A stretch of DNA of 64,000 nucleotides from Macrocystis pyrifera (taxonomy: Eukaryota > Sar > Phaeophyceae > Laminariales > Laminariaceae). The stretch lies in NCBI GenBank assembly GCA_031763025.1, contig JASSKH010000040.1, forward strand, positions 819,001-883,000, given 5' to 3'. Positions 1 to 5,116 of the stretch are shown here, piece after piece. Numbering within the stretch: position 1 is the first letter of the stretch; each line of letters opens with the position of its first letter. The notes beneath the pieces were generated by a model. The model ran no database searches, was not told where the DNA came from, and was given only the letters and a program-made list of their open reading frames with translations. The translations under genes were made by a program, and so were the position numbers.

Positions 1-659
1 AACTTCGTTCTTACCAGGTACCAGGCACAGAGTAGTGCAAATTTTACGAATACACTGGCCACCTGTGCAGCTCTTATTCCAATCACACCATCTTCATCAA
101 GGGTACCTGTAGAATCCAAATGACTTAAAACATGGAAGGTGTTATCAATCGACAACCAGACTTGATTACTTGAGGGGGGGGGGGGGAATAGCAATAACGC
201 AGTCTCCCTTTGAGTGACCCTATATATCTCATACTGACTCCTGACTCTCACCGACGCATCACTCAAACTTGAAAGGGTGACGTTGGTGGCGTTTAAAAAA
301 AAACATCCGGGCGACCGAAATACCAGCCTTGACAAATAAAACCCGCATCCTGAACAAAGTAGGCTGACGGTGTCTGCACAGATGTGGAGGCTTCAACCGC
401 CCTCAACACACCTGAACAGGGGGCGCAGTATATCGTCTCCTCCTCCTCCCCCCCCCCCCCCGATTCTGCGTACGCTTCCGCGGAAAGAACACCCATCTAT
501 ATTGAGGGACCATCCCTGAGTAGGGCGGTCACCGATTAAAATTGCAGGTTTCAGGCCGTTTCCTATGCGGTTCGATTTCGATCTTCAGATTTGTATTTTT
601 CGATCTCAAAATCGAATGACCCTACTTATGCAGTCCGATTATGCAAAATCCGACCGGAA

Positions 660-755
660 ATTTTTCGATTTGAGATTCCGATGACCCAAGTCGTCGGATT
701 TTGGCCCAAGCCAAAATCCGACGACCTGGGTCATCAGATTTTCAAATCGAAAAAT
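660..755. repeat. Long imperfect hairpin, about 46-bp arms
   Basis: The left arm (660-705) reads ATTTTTCGATTTGAGA and on through GATGACCCAAGTCGTC. The right arm (710-755) is its near-perfect reverse complement, with a 4-base loop. It lies inside the 564-1497 element. Confidence 0.75.
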
Positions 756-1261
756 GACATGCTCTCTAAATTCAAGATAATATCCACGACAGCAAACAGC
801 AGCGGAACGATCGATGAGTTGGATGGTGATACAGCTGTATAGCGAAGTTGCTTCGCGCCCGACGCGCGGACGGCGCATCCCTCCGTGGCTAGACTACAGT
901 CGGCTGGCGCGGGCTCGGGCCTAGAGACCAAGAGAAGAGCACCCGGCACGCGCCTCTCCGTGGATACGTACTCGTAGACTACACTGCAGCTGTACAGCAG
1001 CAGCAGCAGCAAGTCAAGTCACAAAATCAAACACAAAATACCAAGACAGGTTGACTCTAGCGCACTCGCCACATCTCTTCGCCACCAGACTAGAGGCAGT
1101 CAGCGTGGGCTCGGACGCTTGGGTCCTACGCGCAGGGCAGCGCACCCAGCGCGTCTCTTCGCGGCGCCAAATCACAAAAACAGCAGTTGGTCTCGGCGTT
1201 TGCTCGAGTCTCTACACGCACAATAAATCTGATTTTTCCGCATAGGAAGGCCCTTTCGATT

Positions 1262-1411
1262 TTATAAATCACAATAATTGTAAAATTAGGTAAAAATGGA
1301 ATATAGACGAGGCGTATTACGCAGCTTGCAAAATTGAGTATCAACTATTTAATCAGTCCAACTCACAGCTGACGTATTTCAAAATTTTATAAAAAAAAAA
1401 AAATTGAAATA
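1262..1411 (+). mobile_element. A-tailed short retroposon copy with target duplication
   Basis: A copy of a dispersed unit (others at 2475-2704, 2705-2773 plus 4661-4742, and 4743-4975) ending in an A-rich stretch near 1390-1402. The 14-bp word GGCCCTTTCGATTT occurs directly before (1248-1261) and directly after (1412-1425) the copy, as expected of a target-site duplication. No reading frame. The A-rich end and long duplication argue for LINE-type retroposition; the copy is 5'-truncated relative to 4743-4975. Confidence 0.55.
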
Positions 1412-1616
1412 CGGCCCTTTCGATTTGTCAAGCTCAAATCCATGTATCTGAAAATGCCATCGGGTCAAAATCTGAAGCTCAAAAATCGAACCGCATACGT
1501 GGCAAGAGATTCCTACCGCCTTATCGTTGGCGGACACACATGCACAAGGTATAGCCGTACTGCTGGATACTGCTGTGTACGACTACCACTACTGCTGCCT
1601 GTGCAATGTACGATAC

Positions 1617-1754
1617 CTTGGTCTAGAAGCTGCTGGAGGGCAGGGGAGACGGCCCCGGTGTCCCACATATCGCCCTTTTTGAGGCCGCCCGACCAGTACT
1701 CCTCCCATCGAGGAGACGCGCCAACTTCTTCGGAAAGGCTGCTCGTCGTGCTCA

Positions 1755-1791
<37 letters not shown>

Positions 1792-2052
1792 AGCGGCGGC
1801 GGCTTGGTCAACAGGTGATCGTAGAAATAATAGCGATAGATGTGGCGAAAAATGTCGCGACAACCGCACGAAAGCACCTTCGTCGTGGAACAGCGGCGGT
1901 GGTGATGATGTTCTTGGTTGGTGCTGCTGCTTCTGCTGCGCTGAGGGTACTGCTGCGAAAGAGAAGGCTCGAACTGCCACGAAAGAAAAGGCTAGCTGCG
2001 AGAGGAATGGAAGAGTAAGGCAGCTTTTGAGAAGAGAGATGCCGTGAAACAT
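1617..2052 (-). CDS. TPMT-family (thiol/halide methyltransferase-like) protein, first exon
   Basis: The exon starts at an ATG (2050-2052) and ends at a donor CAAG|GTATCG, giving about 145 residues in phase 1. The N-terminus has a hydrophobic segment (residues about 8-28) followed by VRAFSFAAVPSA, which resembles a heterokont bipartite plastid-targeting signal with its Ala-Phe cleavage motif. A low-complexity linker with an 11-Ser run follows. The last 40 residues contain PRWEEYWSGGLKKGDMWDTG and then SPALQQLLDQG. This matches the start of the S-adenosylmethionine-dependent TPMT/HOL fold (W..xW..G...WD.G..SP.L..LL..G), just upstream of the expected SAM-binding glycine motif. That motif and the rest of the enzyme are not in the window, so the next exon must lie left of position 1. 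A captured gene fragment inside a repeat nest is the alternative, because repeat copies lie on both sides. Compartment and substrate are inference. Confidence 0.6.
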
Positions 2053-2474
2053 AGTCGTGGACTTGGGAGCACGCGCTTGAGGTCGGCGTATGTTGGTGCC
2101 CCGAAAAGGGCTTGGTCGTAGACCCGTAGACACGCCGAAACGCGGGAAGTTTGCGGGGCATTCGATGGAGGTGACGTCATGTGCGGCGGGATTCCAACTT
2201 TTAAAATTCGAAGCGACTCATACATGTTCCGTTTCGAGTTTCGAAGTTTGGAATTTTGAAGGACGATCGACAAACGGCGAACAACCCGAACGAGTTGCAA
2301 CGACGTTCCAACGCACAGCTAGCTATACAATTGGAGCCTGTCCTGTGACCACGGACTCGAGTTTGGCGAGGAAACAACAACAAAATGACGACAACGAGGC
2401 AATGAACTTCCCTTGGTCTCTCCTTGGCTCTTCTTCTTCACACTCTACTATTATATCAGTGCGCAGAATAATTA

Positions 2475-2704
2475 TTTTTTTTATAAATTTTGAAATACGT
2501 CAGCTGTGAGTTCGACTGATTAAATAGTTGATACTCAACTTTGCAAGCTGCGTAATACGCCTCGTCTATATTCCATTTTTAGCTAATTTTACAAGTATTG
2601 TGATAAACCGAGCGCGCGTATTCTATATGTGATTCCTTGTCAAAGATATAGGCCAGCGGCTCCCCTGGATGCTGCCCGGGTCAACAGGACAATTTTAAAT
2701 AATC
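2475..2704 (-). mobile_element. A-tailed retroposon, near full-length copy
   Basis: A 230-bp non-coding unit whose A-rich (here T-rich) end lies at 2468-2484. It shares GAAATACGTCAGCTGTGAGT, GCAAGCTGCGTAATACG and ATGCTGCCCGGGTCA with the inverted copy at 4743-4975. Three head-or-tail related copies cluster here, so the family targets or accumulates at this site. Confidence 0.55.
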
Positions 2705-4742
2705 ATTTATTTTATAATTTTTTAAATACGTCAGCTGTGAGTTCGACTGATTAAATAGTTGATACTCAACTTTGCACACCTCGGATAACGTAACACTCGG
2801 ATAACACTTATGTACGTTATGGGGTCTAACACAGGAACGTGGTAACGTACTAACATAGTGTTAGCACTACAGGAGCGATCACGGTAACGCGGTAACACAG
2901 TGTTAACTGGAAACCCACGAACGAGCACGAGCCTTAACGTTATGTTGCTGCTCGGTCTTGTCCAGCTCTGGCACAGTAACATTATGTTATGCCGTGATCA
3001 GTCCTTGAACTAACACCGTGACACAGTGTTAGGCTTTGACCAAACACGTACGTTATCACTGTAACATGCCCAGATCGATATCCGCATGTTTACTGACACG
3101 ATAAAATAATGTTATTGTCGACGCGGCGTTAGACGTAATACAATAACATTATGTTACCGTTACCATGTTCGCCAGCACTACTAACACATAACATTGTGTT
3201 ACAGATAACCCACCAACGTAACAAAACGCAATGACCAGCACTACGAACACTACGTTGTCTGGACCCCCCATCTGATTGCCTTAGGGTCGGATAACGTAAC
3301 ACTTAACGTACGTTAGATACGTTACAGTCTTAGCCGGCCCATGCGTAACGTTATGTTAGGATGTTAGCCTAAACGCGGAAGTCTCTGTAACATTATGTTA
3401 CGGTGTTACCGTCAGTAAATATCTGATGGTAACATTCCGTTACGGTGTTACCATAAAAACCAATCCGGGTCTAACTTTATGTTACTGAGTTACCGTTGGG
3501 GCCGAAGTCATTCTAACGTAATGTTACTACGTTACCCTTTGGATCTTCCCGAGATCTAACATATGTTACCTGTGATGGTGGTAAAGCGGGCGTGTAGGAG
3601 TAACATAGCGTAGCCGTGTTATCCAATTTCGCCGACATCCCTGTAGGGGATACCTACAAAATATCCCCGGGGGGGAGGATAGCATGTCATTCCCGGTAAA
3701 AACGCCTCCATATTTCCCAACCCCAAAACAGGGAATATTTAGGAGGATCCCCGCAAAAAAAACGCCTCAGTTTTTTGTGGAAACCCCGCCAGTACGTTAT
3801 CCATGTATAACACATTACGTTATCCATCTATATAACGTAATCTGCACACTCGCACGTGCGAGTTAACACGGCAGTAACATATTGTTGGCTTTAGATTGGG
3901 GGTTTACGTTATGTACTATTAATAACTTGTGTCACTAAATACATTGCATACAAGTTAACAACATTACAATAATTTAATAGTGTTTTATCGATCATGTACG
4001 TTCGGTTCCCGTTTGACATATGTTCTGTTATGGTATTAATAGCAAGACTTCCGTAATACCCTCACATAACGTCGCTCGAAACGGACTGCTGCTGCGGCTG
4101 ATACGGTAACATAATGTTAACGTTGTATTGACCATATACGTCATCCCTCTAACGTGTTTTATGATAGCCCCTAGGAATTTCACTAACAATCTAACATAGT
4201 GTTATGTACGCGTTTATTTGGCCGTGTACGTTGTCCGTCGAAAGGGTGTTACGGTAGCACGAAGAATCCCGCTGACACACTAACATAACGTTACTCCCTA
4301 CGGGCTGATGCCGCTAACACGGTATCATAATGTTAACGTTTAATGGACCATGTACGTTATCCCTTCAACGTGTGTTACGATAGCCACCAGGAATTCCGCT
4401 AACACGCTAACATAGTGTTACTCGCTATGGGCTGCATACCCTAACACCGTAACACATATACTGCGATCAGTACGAGACCTAGGTAACACTCTAACATAAT
4501 GTTACGCGATCGCCCGCCAATATCATAACACACCAACACTATGTTATCACAAAATCCAGAAAGTAGTTAACGTAGTAACGTAATATTACTCTTTTTTTTC
4601 GCTGACGCCTAACATTAACATAAGACGTTAAGTGTTACGTTATCCGAGGTGTGCAACTTTGCAAGCTGCGTAATACGTCTCTTCTATATTCCATTTTTAC
4701 CGAATTTTACAAGTATTGTGATAAACCGAACGCGCGTATTCT
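2705..4742 (-). mobile_element. Retroposon copy split by a later insertion
   Basis: The first part of the unit (2705-2773) and its continuation (4661-4742) are separated by the 1.9-kb palindrome-rich element. Across the junction the unit resumes exactly where it stopped once the duplicated AACTTT is removed, so the inner element is the younger insertion. Confidence 0.65.
2774..4654. mobile_element. Non-autonomous inverted-repeat transposon built of short palindromes
   Basis: The termini are perfect inverted repeats of 24 bp beginning GCACACCTCGGATAACGTAA. A 6-bp target duplication AACTTT flanks it (2768-2773 and 4655-4660). The interior has no gene. It is an irregular array of more than 20 copies of a degenerate palindrome (for example GTAACATTATGTTAC, CTAACATAGTGTTAG, CTAACATATGTTAC), spaced roughly every 50-90 bp, often as pairs with a second half-site such as GGTGTTACC. 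The palindrome resembles a dyad protein-binding site, so the array could be repeated transposase or host-factor sites; this is inference. No superfamily is assigned. Confidence 0.75.
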
Positions 4743-4975
4743 GATTATTTAAAATTGTCCTACTGACCCGGGCAGCATCCAGGGGAGCCGCTGGCCTATA
4801 TCTTTGACAAGGAATCACATATAGAATACGCGCGTTCGGTTTATCACAATACTTGTAAAATTCGGTAAAAATGGAATATAGACGAGACGTATTACGCAGC
4901 TTGCAAAGTTGAGTATCAACTGTTTAATCAGTCGAACTCACAGCTGACGTATTTCAAAATTTGTAAAATAATACT
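4743..4975 (+). mobile_element. A-tailed retroposon, inverted copy
   Basis: Reverse-orientation copy of the 2475-2704 unit, ending in TTTCAAAATTTGTAAAATAA. With the split copy beside it, it forms a large inverted repeat that could be mistaken for the ends of one transposon. Confidence 0.55.
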
Positions 4976-5116
4976 ACGAGCAGTAGTACGTAAGTATATC
5001 CCCAACCCAGCCGGAAAGGAATGCGGTTTCAGATTACGACAGGATTATTAAGAAACGAGCGTAGCGACAGCCGTCGACGCAAAGTCGACTAACTAAAGGT
5101 TTCTGTTAGATATCGT

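Follow-up and report, generated by a model that had tools for sequence, protein, structure and literature searches.

The element at positions 2775–4653 of the window—the whole 64,000-nucleotide stretch of Macrocystis pyrifera DNA that was analyzed—is a non-autonomous DNA transposon of 1,879 bp, whose body carries short palindromes (dyads) mostly set at a pitch of 42 bp. It features terminal inverted repeats (TIRs), a target duplication of fixed length, no coding capacity, and many copies, and, hence, belongs to the class II non-autonomous TIR transposons. It is probably a cut-and-paste element with two subterminal arrays of predicted transposase sites, which remain from a larger ancestor after an internal deletion. 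The element would be moved in trans by a transposase encoded elsewhere. The two arrays of approximately 0.85 kb each would have been joined by loss of the ancestor's coding middle—which we infer from the two-array layout with a dyad-free stretch in it. The transposase, or a partner DNA-binding protein, would bind the dyads and the three-part sites built on them. Since neighboring sites are mostly 42 bp apart, the bound molecules would lie on one face of the DNA, may load cooperatively, and would pass the ends on to the active site at the TIRs, where the same half-site words are found.

The TIRs of the window element match perfectly (23/23; CACACC..GGTGTG), and the end sequence of the family is CACACCTCGGATAACG. 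The earlier note had described perfect inverted ends of 24 bp and a target duplication of 6 bp. The ends are indeed perfect, at a length of 23 bp (2775–4653), the apparent 24th base being a chance G/C of the target duplication; the latter measures 8 bp (CAACTTTG, at 2767–2774 and 4654–4661). The longest stop-free stretch in the element has 85 codons, in line with the gene-free body described before. The surrounding repeat holds the target site in unoccupied, paralogous form (ACTCAACTTTGCAAGC) at 2533 (+) and 4899 (−), so that the insertion is shown directly. The parts of the element are as follows.

2767–2774, unstranded: left target site duplication, 8 bp, CAACTTTG; paralogous empty sites at 2533 (+) and 4899 (−)
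2775–2797, plus strand: left TIR, 23 bp, CACACCTCGGATAACGTAACACT; matched 1,310 times in the genome with 2 mismatches allowed, the reversed-pattern control 0 times
2798–3625, unstranded: left dyad array, placed by motif and phasing, right boundary estimated; cores start at about 2851, 2893, 2935, 2977, 3019, 3102, 3144, and 3189, and further cores, with the third half-site on the opposite side, at about 3346, 3388, 3430, 3472, and 3514
3287–3309, plus strand: copy of the inner TIR inside the element, TCGGATAACGTAACACTTAACGT, 100% complementary to 4625–4647
3626–3790, unstranded: dyad-free stretch, probable junction of left and right array, boundaries estimated
3791–4630, unstranded: right dyad array, its cores interspersed with TACGTTATCC, the TIR word in reverse complement; cores start at about 3875, 4107, 4192, 4281, 4323, 4408, 4492, 4534, and 4576
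4631–4653, minus strand: right TIR, 23 bp, perfect match to the left TIR
4654–4661, unstranded: right target site duplication, 8 bp, CAACTTTG

The element sits within another repeat, whose inverted arms (2479–2774 and 4654–4971) are 94–97% identical; this host repeat is present somewhere in 7 of the 64 loci compared. At locus L070 on contig C133, two copies of the family are adjacent, with CAAAGTTG between and before them. The surroundings there resemble the host repeat of the window element (88% over 100 bases), i.e., the insertions use the same CAACTTTG site, which suggests a favored target. A scan of window positions 2400–5000 against Rfam gave no match, and promoter and terminator scans, run with models made for bacteria, remained near shuffled levels.

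The window copy contains 10 exact occurrences of the dyad TAACANNNTGTTA and the family consensus 15, against a mean of 0.01 in 200 dinucleotide shuffles. With one mismatch allowed, the window copy has 20 dyads, compared with a shuffle mean of 0.31, and with two mismatches allowed the consensus has 27. Per kb, the half-sites TAAC and GTTA number 54 inside the element and 4.1 in the remainder of the window. The dyads thus fill the interior, as had been proposed, at a frequency far above that of the shuffles and not at that expected from base composition. Many are part of a three-part site of 21 bp, TAAC[A/G]CnnTAACATAATGTTA, in which a third half-site accompanies the 13-bp palindromic core. The third TAAC is complete in 18 of 26 aligned sites and lies 8 bp from the half-site of the core. 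These 26 sites were picked by hand, by dropping two of the 27 consensus dyads (at 23 and 1247) and adding one at 826; each was then oriented for the better third half-site, a choice that leans toward the three-part reading. The third half-site is nevertheless real and not a product of this orienting, as judged by plain offsets from TAAC to TAAC, of which 14 fall at 8 bp and 28 at 42 bp, compared with a mean of 2.6. It stands on one side of the core at the left end, on the other at consensus positions 615–826, and on the first again at the right end. The remaining positions of the 42-bp unit hold little information in the 26 aligned sites.

Words of the TIR recur in the interior, as the earlier note had observed. 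The TIR word GGATAACGTA is found 12 times in the consensus at up to one mismatch, 10 of these being internal and 6 of the internal ones exact, against a shuffle mean of 0.13. Matches elsewhere number 7 in subfamily B, 7 in the distant relative L079, 4 in L077, and 2 in L068; the internal copy is exact in L068 too and is found at the corresponding place of L079 with one mismatch. The TIR lacks the dyad core; common to TIR and interior are only the half-site and the GGATAACGTA word. With the same words in ends and interior, the transposase is the natural candidate for the binding protein. In IMG/VR, the TIR pattern has 0 matches and the 21-bp motif one, which is taken as chance.

The spacing of the dyads, described before as irregular, has a common pitch of 42 bp. 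In the consensus, 19 of 26 gaps between dyads (up to two mismatches) equal a multiple of 42 bp within 2 bp, which none of 20,000 uniform random placements reached, and 42 is the best among pitches of 15 to 99. At up to one mismatch 17 of 23 gaps are phased (0 of 20,000 placements as good), and at up to three mismatches, where chance sites enter, 12 of 49. A core-free gap of 366 bp splits the left array from the right one (consensus, up to two mismatches). The phasing is also found in distant relatives: at up to two mismatches, 8 of 14 gaps are phased in L077, 7 of 12 in L079, and 5 of 11 in L068, with 2, 3, and 100 of 20,000 placements as good, respectively. At up to one mismatch it is retained in L079 (5 of 8 gaps; 22 of 20,000 placements as good) and not seen in L077 or L068, each with 1 phased gap out of 5. 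Four helical turns of 10.5 bp make up 42 bp, and, hence, the sites face the same side of the DNA.

The element belongs to a family dispersed over the genome searched (Macrocystis pyrifera, 537 Mb, 223 contigs); the giant kelp assembly is described as 35 scaffolds plus 188 contigs with 537 MB (PMC10498591). The 23-bp end has 639 + 671 = 1,310 matches genome-wide at up to two mismatches and 0 for the reversed control, and judged from this count the copy number is some hundreds. A DNA search for the element gave at least 52 matching stretches from the best 40 of 1,534 candidates. Two-ended copies, with ends at up to 3 mismatches in 16 bases, number 35, the window's included. The two flanking 8-mers agree fully in 19 of these copies, differ by one base in 5, and by more in 11, this last group including L010 and L012, which were scored with an inner end, and some copies that by eye look like 7-bp duplications shifted by one. 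The 24 copies with no or one difference have duplications rich in A and T, with A at position 2 in 20 and T at position 7 in 21. The consensus of subfamily A (1,912 bp) was built from 31 copies—the 35 two-ended ones minus L030, L031, L033, and L040—each of which lies 1.5–5.5% from it; the median pairwise difference among copies is 5.3%. Other copies, which the earlier note had proposed to look for, thus exist in number. Together, perfect TIRs, the 8-bp duplication, the empty paralogous site, the 1,310 TIR matches, and the 31 aligned copies bear out the mobile element it had proposed. Judged by the low divergence of its copies, the spread of the family is a fairly recent burst, and the element represents a family of giant kelp transposons with recent activity. 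Cut-and-paste mobility, with enzymes supplied in trans, is shown by the ends, the duplications, and the youth of the copies.

For subfamily B (L058–L063 and L065), 7 copies yield a consensus of 1,594 bp. The subfamily lacks some array stretches that hold sites, and its half-sites are fewer (53 versus 65 per kb). Five similar 1.6-kb copies of this subfamily (L058–L062) lie within approximately 0.3 Mb of contig C126 (2.92–3.24 Mb), perhaps by local transposition or segmental duplication. More distant relatives have the same layout. Both ends are present in L077 (5 and 2 mismatches) and L079 (1 and 6 mismatches), and an exact left end alone was seen in L066 and L068. Copies of the family also insert into each other, with three such events among the 35 two-ended copies, in a family that makes up approximately 0.2% of the genome as estimated from the TIR count. 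L031 (about 994–2933) is a clean nested insertion of one family copy into another; L010 and L012 form one composite, a partial copy joined to a full one, with GACGTTTT on both sides of the whole; and L030 looks by eye like a nested pair with an inversion ending at the TIRs, where the script for nested copies gave no flag.

Resident copies decay evenly. Half-site bases are changed at 426 of 14,836 positions (2.87%), compared with 1,225 of 43,852 (2.79%) for other bases; the TIR ends are changed at 1.6%, but the copies were chosen by their ends. The array thus shows no sign of constraint where it resides, in keeping with a function in transposition rather than a host function of the resident copies. 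Over longer distances the half-sites persist: those of the consensus are 76–78% identical in L068, L077, and L079, compared with 55–59% elsewhere. In the comparisons of A with these three relatives TAAC ranks first or second among the 4-mers tested. Over eleven comparisons its ranks are 9, 3, 6, 8, 3, 2, 1, 2, 2, 6, and 1, and among the three relatives themselves they go from 2nd of 56 down to 9th of 30, TAAC being no better than its own anagrams in the comparison of L079 to L068. In the closer relative L066 the difference is small (82.5% for half-sites, 79.0% elsewhere). Since an aligner may favor recurring words in such identity comparisons, it is safer to rely on the dyad counts, which with one mismatch allowed come to 6 in L077, 9 in L079, and 6 in L068, with plain shuffle means of 0 to 0.1. 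The words common to TIR and interior, together with persistence in distant members and not in residents, suggest that the transposition machinery recognizes them. Half-sites show no conservation between subfamilies A and B, with 24 of 384 half-site bases of A changed and 62 of 1,075 other bases. Among alignable half-sites, 20 of the 97 in A are absent from B and 6 of the 83 in B are absent from A; substitutions strike 20 half-sites of A (23.3 expected) and 5 of B (17.8 expected). By these counts, the difference between the subfamilies consists mostly of half-sites present in A and missing in B, through either loss in B or gain in A.

The earlier note had proposed that the element grew by multiplication of a binding site. 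As a recent expansion and main origin of the array this is rejected, since the array is already present in relatives of 55–59% identity outside the half-sites and the linkers of the forward blocks are alike at chance level (mean of 0.265 between neighbors versus 0.244; 253 of 1,000 shuffles as good). Partial copying stands. Neighboring linkers of the reversed block are more alike (0.369 versus 0.244; 3 of 1,000 shuffles as good), and a cruder first cut over all linkers gave 0.366 versus 0.244, an excess carried by the reversed block and partly by way of the third half-site. Local duplications are few, with one of 117 bp at 83% in the right array, and the cores are identical between units to 0.84. 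From the linker likeness of the reversed block and the local duplications, it follows that at least part of the array grew by copying of units long ago, most linkers having since drifted apart.

An autonomous partner or a transposase linked to the family ends was found in none of the genome loci examined. Locus L052, a pair of ends 5.76 kb apart around a frame of 1,245 aa, the longest in any retrieved copy, was rejected as the partner: the frame matches Pfam RVT_1 and Exo_endo_phos. This open endonuclease/reverse-transcriptase frame (584–4321) represents a non-LTR-type retrotransposon inside a family copy. L068 has an exact left TIR and approximately 1.2 kb of left array, followed by unrelated DNA. 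Ten of its open stretches carry no Pfam transposase, one giving a subthreshold match to PilI; 20 kb of its sequence contained no right end, even with 6 mismatches allowed; and beyond base ~1,207 there is one partial match (70%, query 2351–2561) among the matches listed. Rather than an autonomous element, L068 is probably a truncated copy. The profile PF05699 (hAT dimerization domain) has at least 150 matches in the genome (150 of 150 scored, the best 150 of 317 candidates), some of them in open frames of 400–629 aa. A by-eye comparison with the places listed by the DNA searches and for 100 of the 1,310 TIR matches found none of them within a family element, and a hAT-like frame near the copy at L080 was rejected as its transposase because it lies outside the element. 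The KDZ profile PF18758 has 0 matches in this genome, 14 control genomes being likewise silent.

As for the superfamily, the 8-bp duplication, as made by Zisupton, and the CA..TG ends, as stated for Kyakuja, suit KDZ. The duplication also has a length found in hAT elements and in MULEs (8–9 bp). The ends of hAT elements are typically YARNG, and the CACACC ends, beginning with CACAC, fit this motif poorly. Membership in CACTA/EnSpm, with its CACTA ends and duplications of 2–3 bp, is excluded by ends and duplication length. The TIR is followed by A or G at 12 places.

Three other explanations of the array were weighed against transposase recognition. The sites may belong to a host DNA-binding protein—of chromatin or replication, or a transcription factor—that the element exploits, for instance, for reaching open chromatin or for retention in the nucleus, while the transposase needs the ends only. 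The lack of the dyad core in the TIR speaks for such a protein, as does an array that extends far past the 150–200 bp needed by Tol2 (PMC10368747). We nonetheless hold it to be unlikely, in view of the recurrence of the TIR word inside the element, a frequency of TAAC/GTTA 13 times lower in the rest of the window, and the even decay of resident copies. Somewhat more doubtful still is a sponge for transposase, i.e., a parasite that multiplied sites and thereby titrates the enzyme, lowering its activity or competing for it. Twenty dyads per window copy (up to one mismatch) times some hundreds of copies would make a large reservoir of sites, but the array is older than the family and, hence, not the expansion of a recent parasite. 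In addition, subfamily B spread as well with its lower density of half-sites, and no autonomous element was found in the loci examined.

A satellite or minisatellite with a 42-bp unit, captured by or made inside a transposon and without binding function, would account for the regular pitch, the linker likeness of the reversed block, the few local duplications, and losses close to a unit in size (37 bp in the window copy, 42 bp in L038, and 43 bp in L023), which occur among other loss sizes. However, in the forward blocks the motif alone recurs, and the third half-site switches side in the block at consensus 615–826, which makes this origin very improbable. A more far-reaching form of the transposase reading, which we put forward as a tentative and rather doubtful idea, takes the element as a transposon stripped down to a scaffold on which transposase assembles in order. 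With a site every four turns on the same helical face, in either arm, a cooperative filament or cluster of transposase might nucleate, draw the ends together across the full length of the element, and give it an edge over its autonomous parent. If so, this lineage would have been selected for transposase sites that keep helical phase along the entire body.

Many transposons require more than their tips, a need for which subterminal binding sites account, and the sources cited below describe such repeats for the end regions of elements. With approximately two dozen near-identical phased sites along nearly all of its body, the kelp element offers a ready test of whether number and helical phase of sites set the efficiency of transposition, and of the competition between non-autonomous elements and their parents.

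Among known systems, hAT elements such as Hermes and Tol2 usually make 8-bp duplications (PMC12730594). Hermes has short subterminal repeats in its ends, 17 in one and 14 in the other; a pair of these makes up a quasi-palindrome, to which two BED domains of the transposase bind (PMC10368747). The kelp element shares the duplication length, the multitude of repeats, and the palindromic arrangement, but its sites are 13-bp dyads, many of them extended to three-part sites of 21 bp, at a pitch of mostly 42 bp over almost 1.9 kb; its CACACC termini depart from the hAT end motif, and no hAT transposase is linked to it. In the CACTA elements Spm/En and soybean Tgm, reiterated subterminal motifs are bound by an element-encoded protein, TNPA in Spm, and deletion derivatives are mobilized in trans (PMC2613891), whereas the ends are CACTA and the duplication is 3 bp, compared with CACACC and 8 bp here. 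The MULE Muta1 of Aedes aegypti resembles the kelp element in its duplications of 8 or 9 bp, its subterminal tandem repeats, and its more than 300 non-autonomous derivatives (PMC5225508). However, its repeats are 12 bp long with spacers of 3–4 bp and lie inside TIRs of 145 bp, whereas the kelp element combines TIRs of 23 bp with an array as long as its body.

The KDZ (Kyakuja-Dileera-Zisupton) elements include Zisupton with 8-bp duplications and Kyakuja with CA..TG ends (PMC12730594), and the brown alga Ectocarpus has giant members of the group (PMC12477816). Kyakuja differs from the kelp element in having 7-bp duplications and no TIRs (PMC12730594), in place of 8 bp and TIRs of 23 bp. The coral MITEs termed CMITE, apparently related to piggyBac, are likewise non-autonomous with a conserved internal region (PMC2872659), whereas a dyad array goes unmentioned in the abstract of that source. 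The statement that no described family is like this one was too strong, given subterminal repeats bound by a transposase or partner protein in Hermes and Spm/En and tandem ones in Muta1. Searches of the accessible literature on subterminal arrays, kelp elements, and palindromic tandem subterminal repeats turned up no paper recognized as a description of this family. The array is a known kind of part, and what is unusual and new in the kelp element is the extent of the array and its 42-bp phasing.
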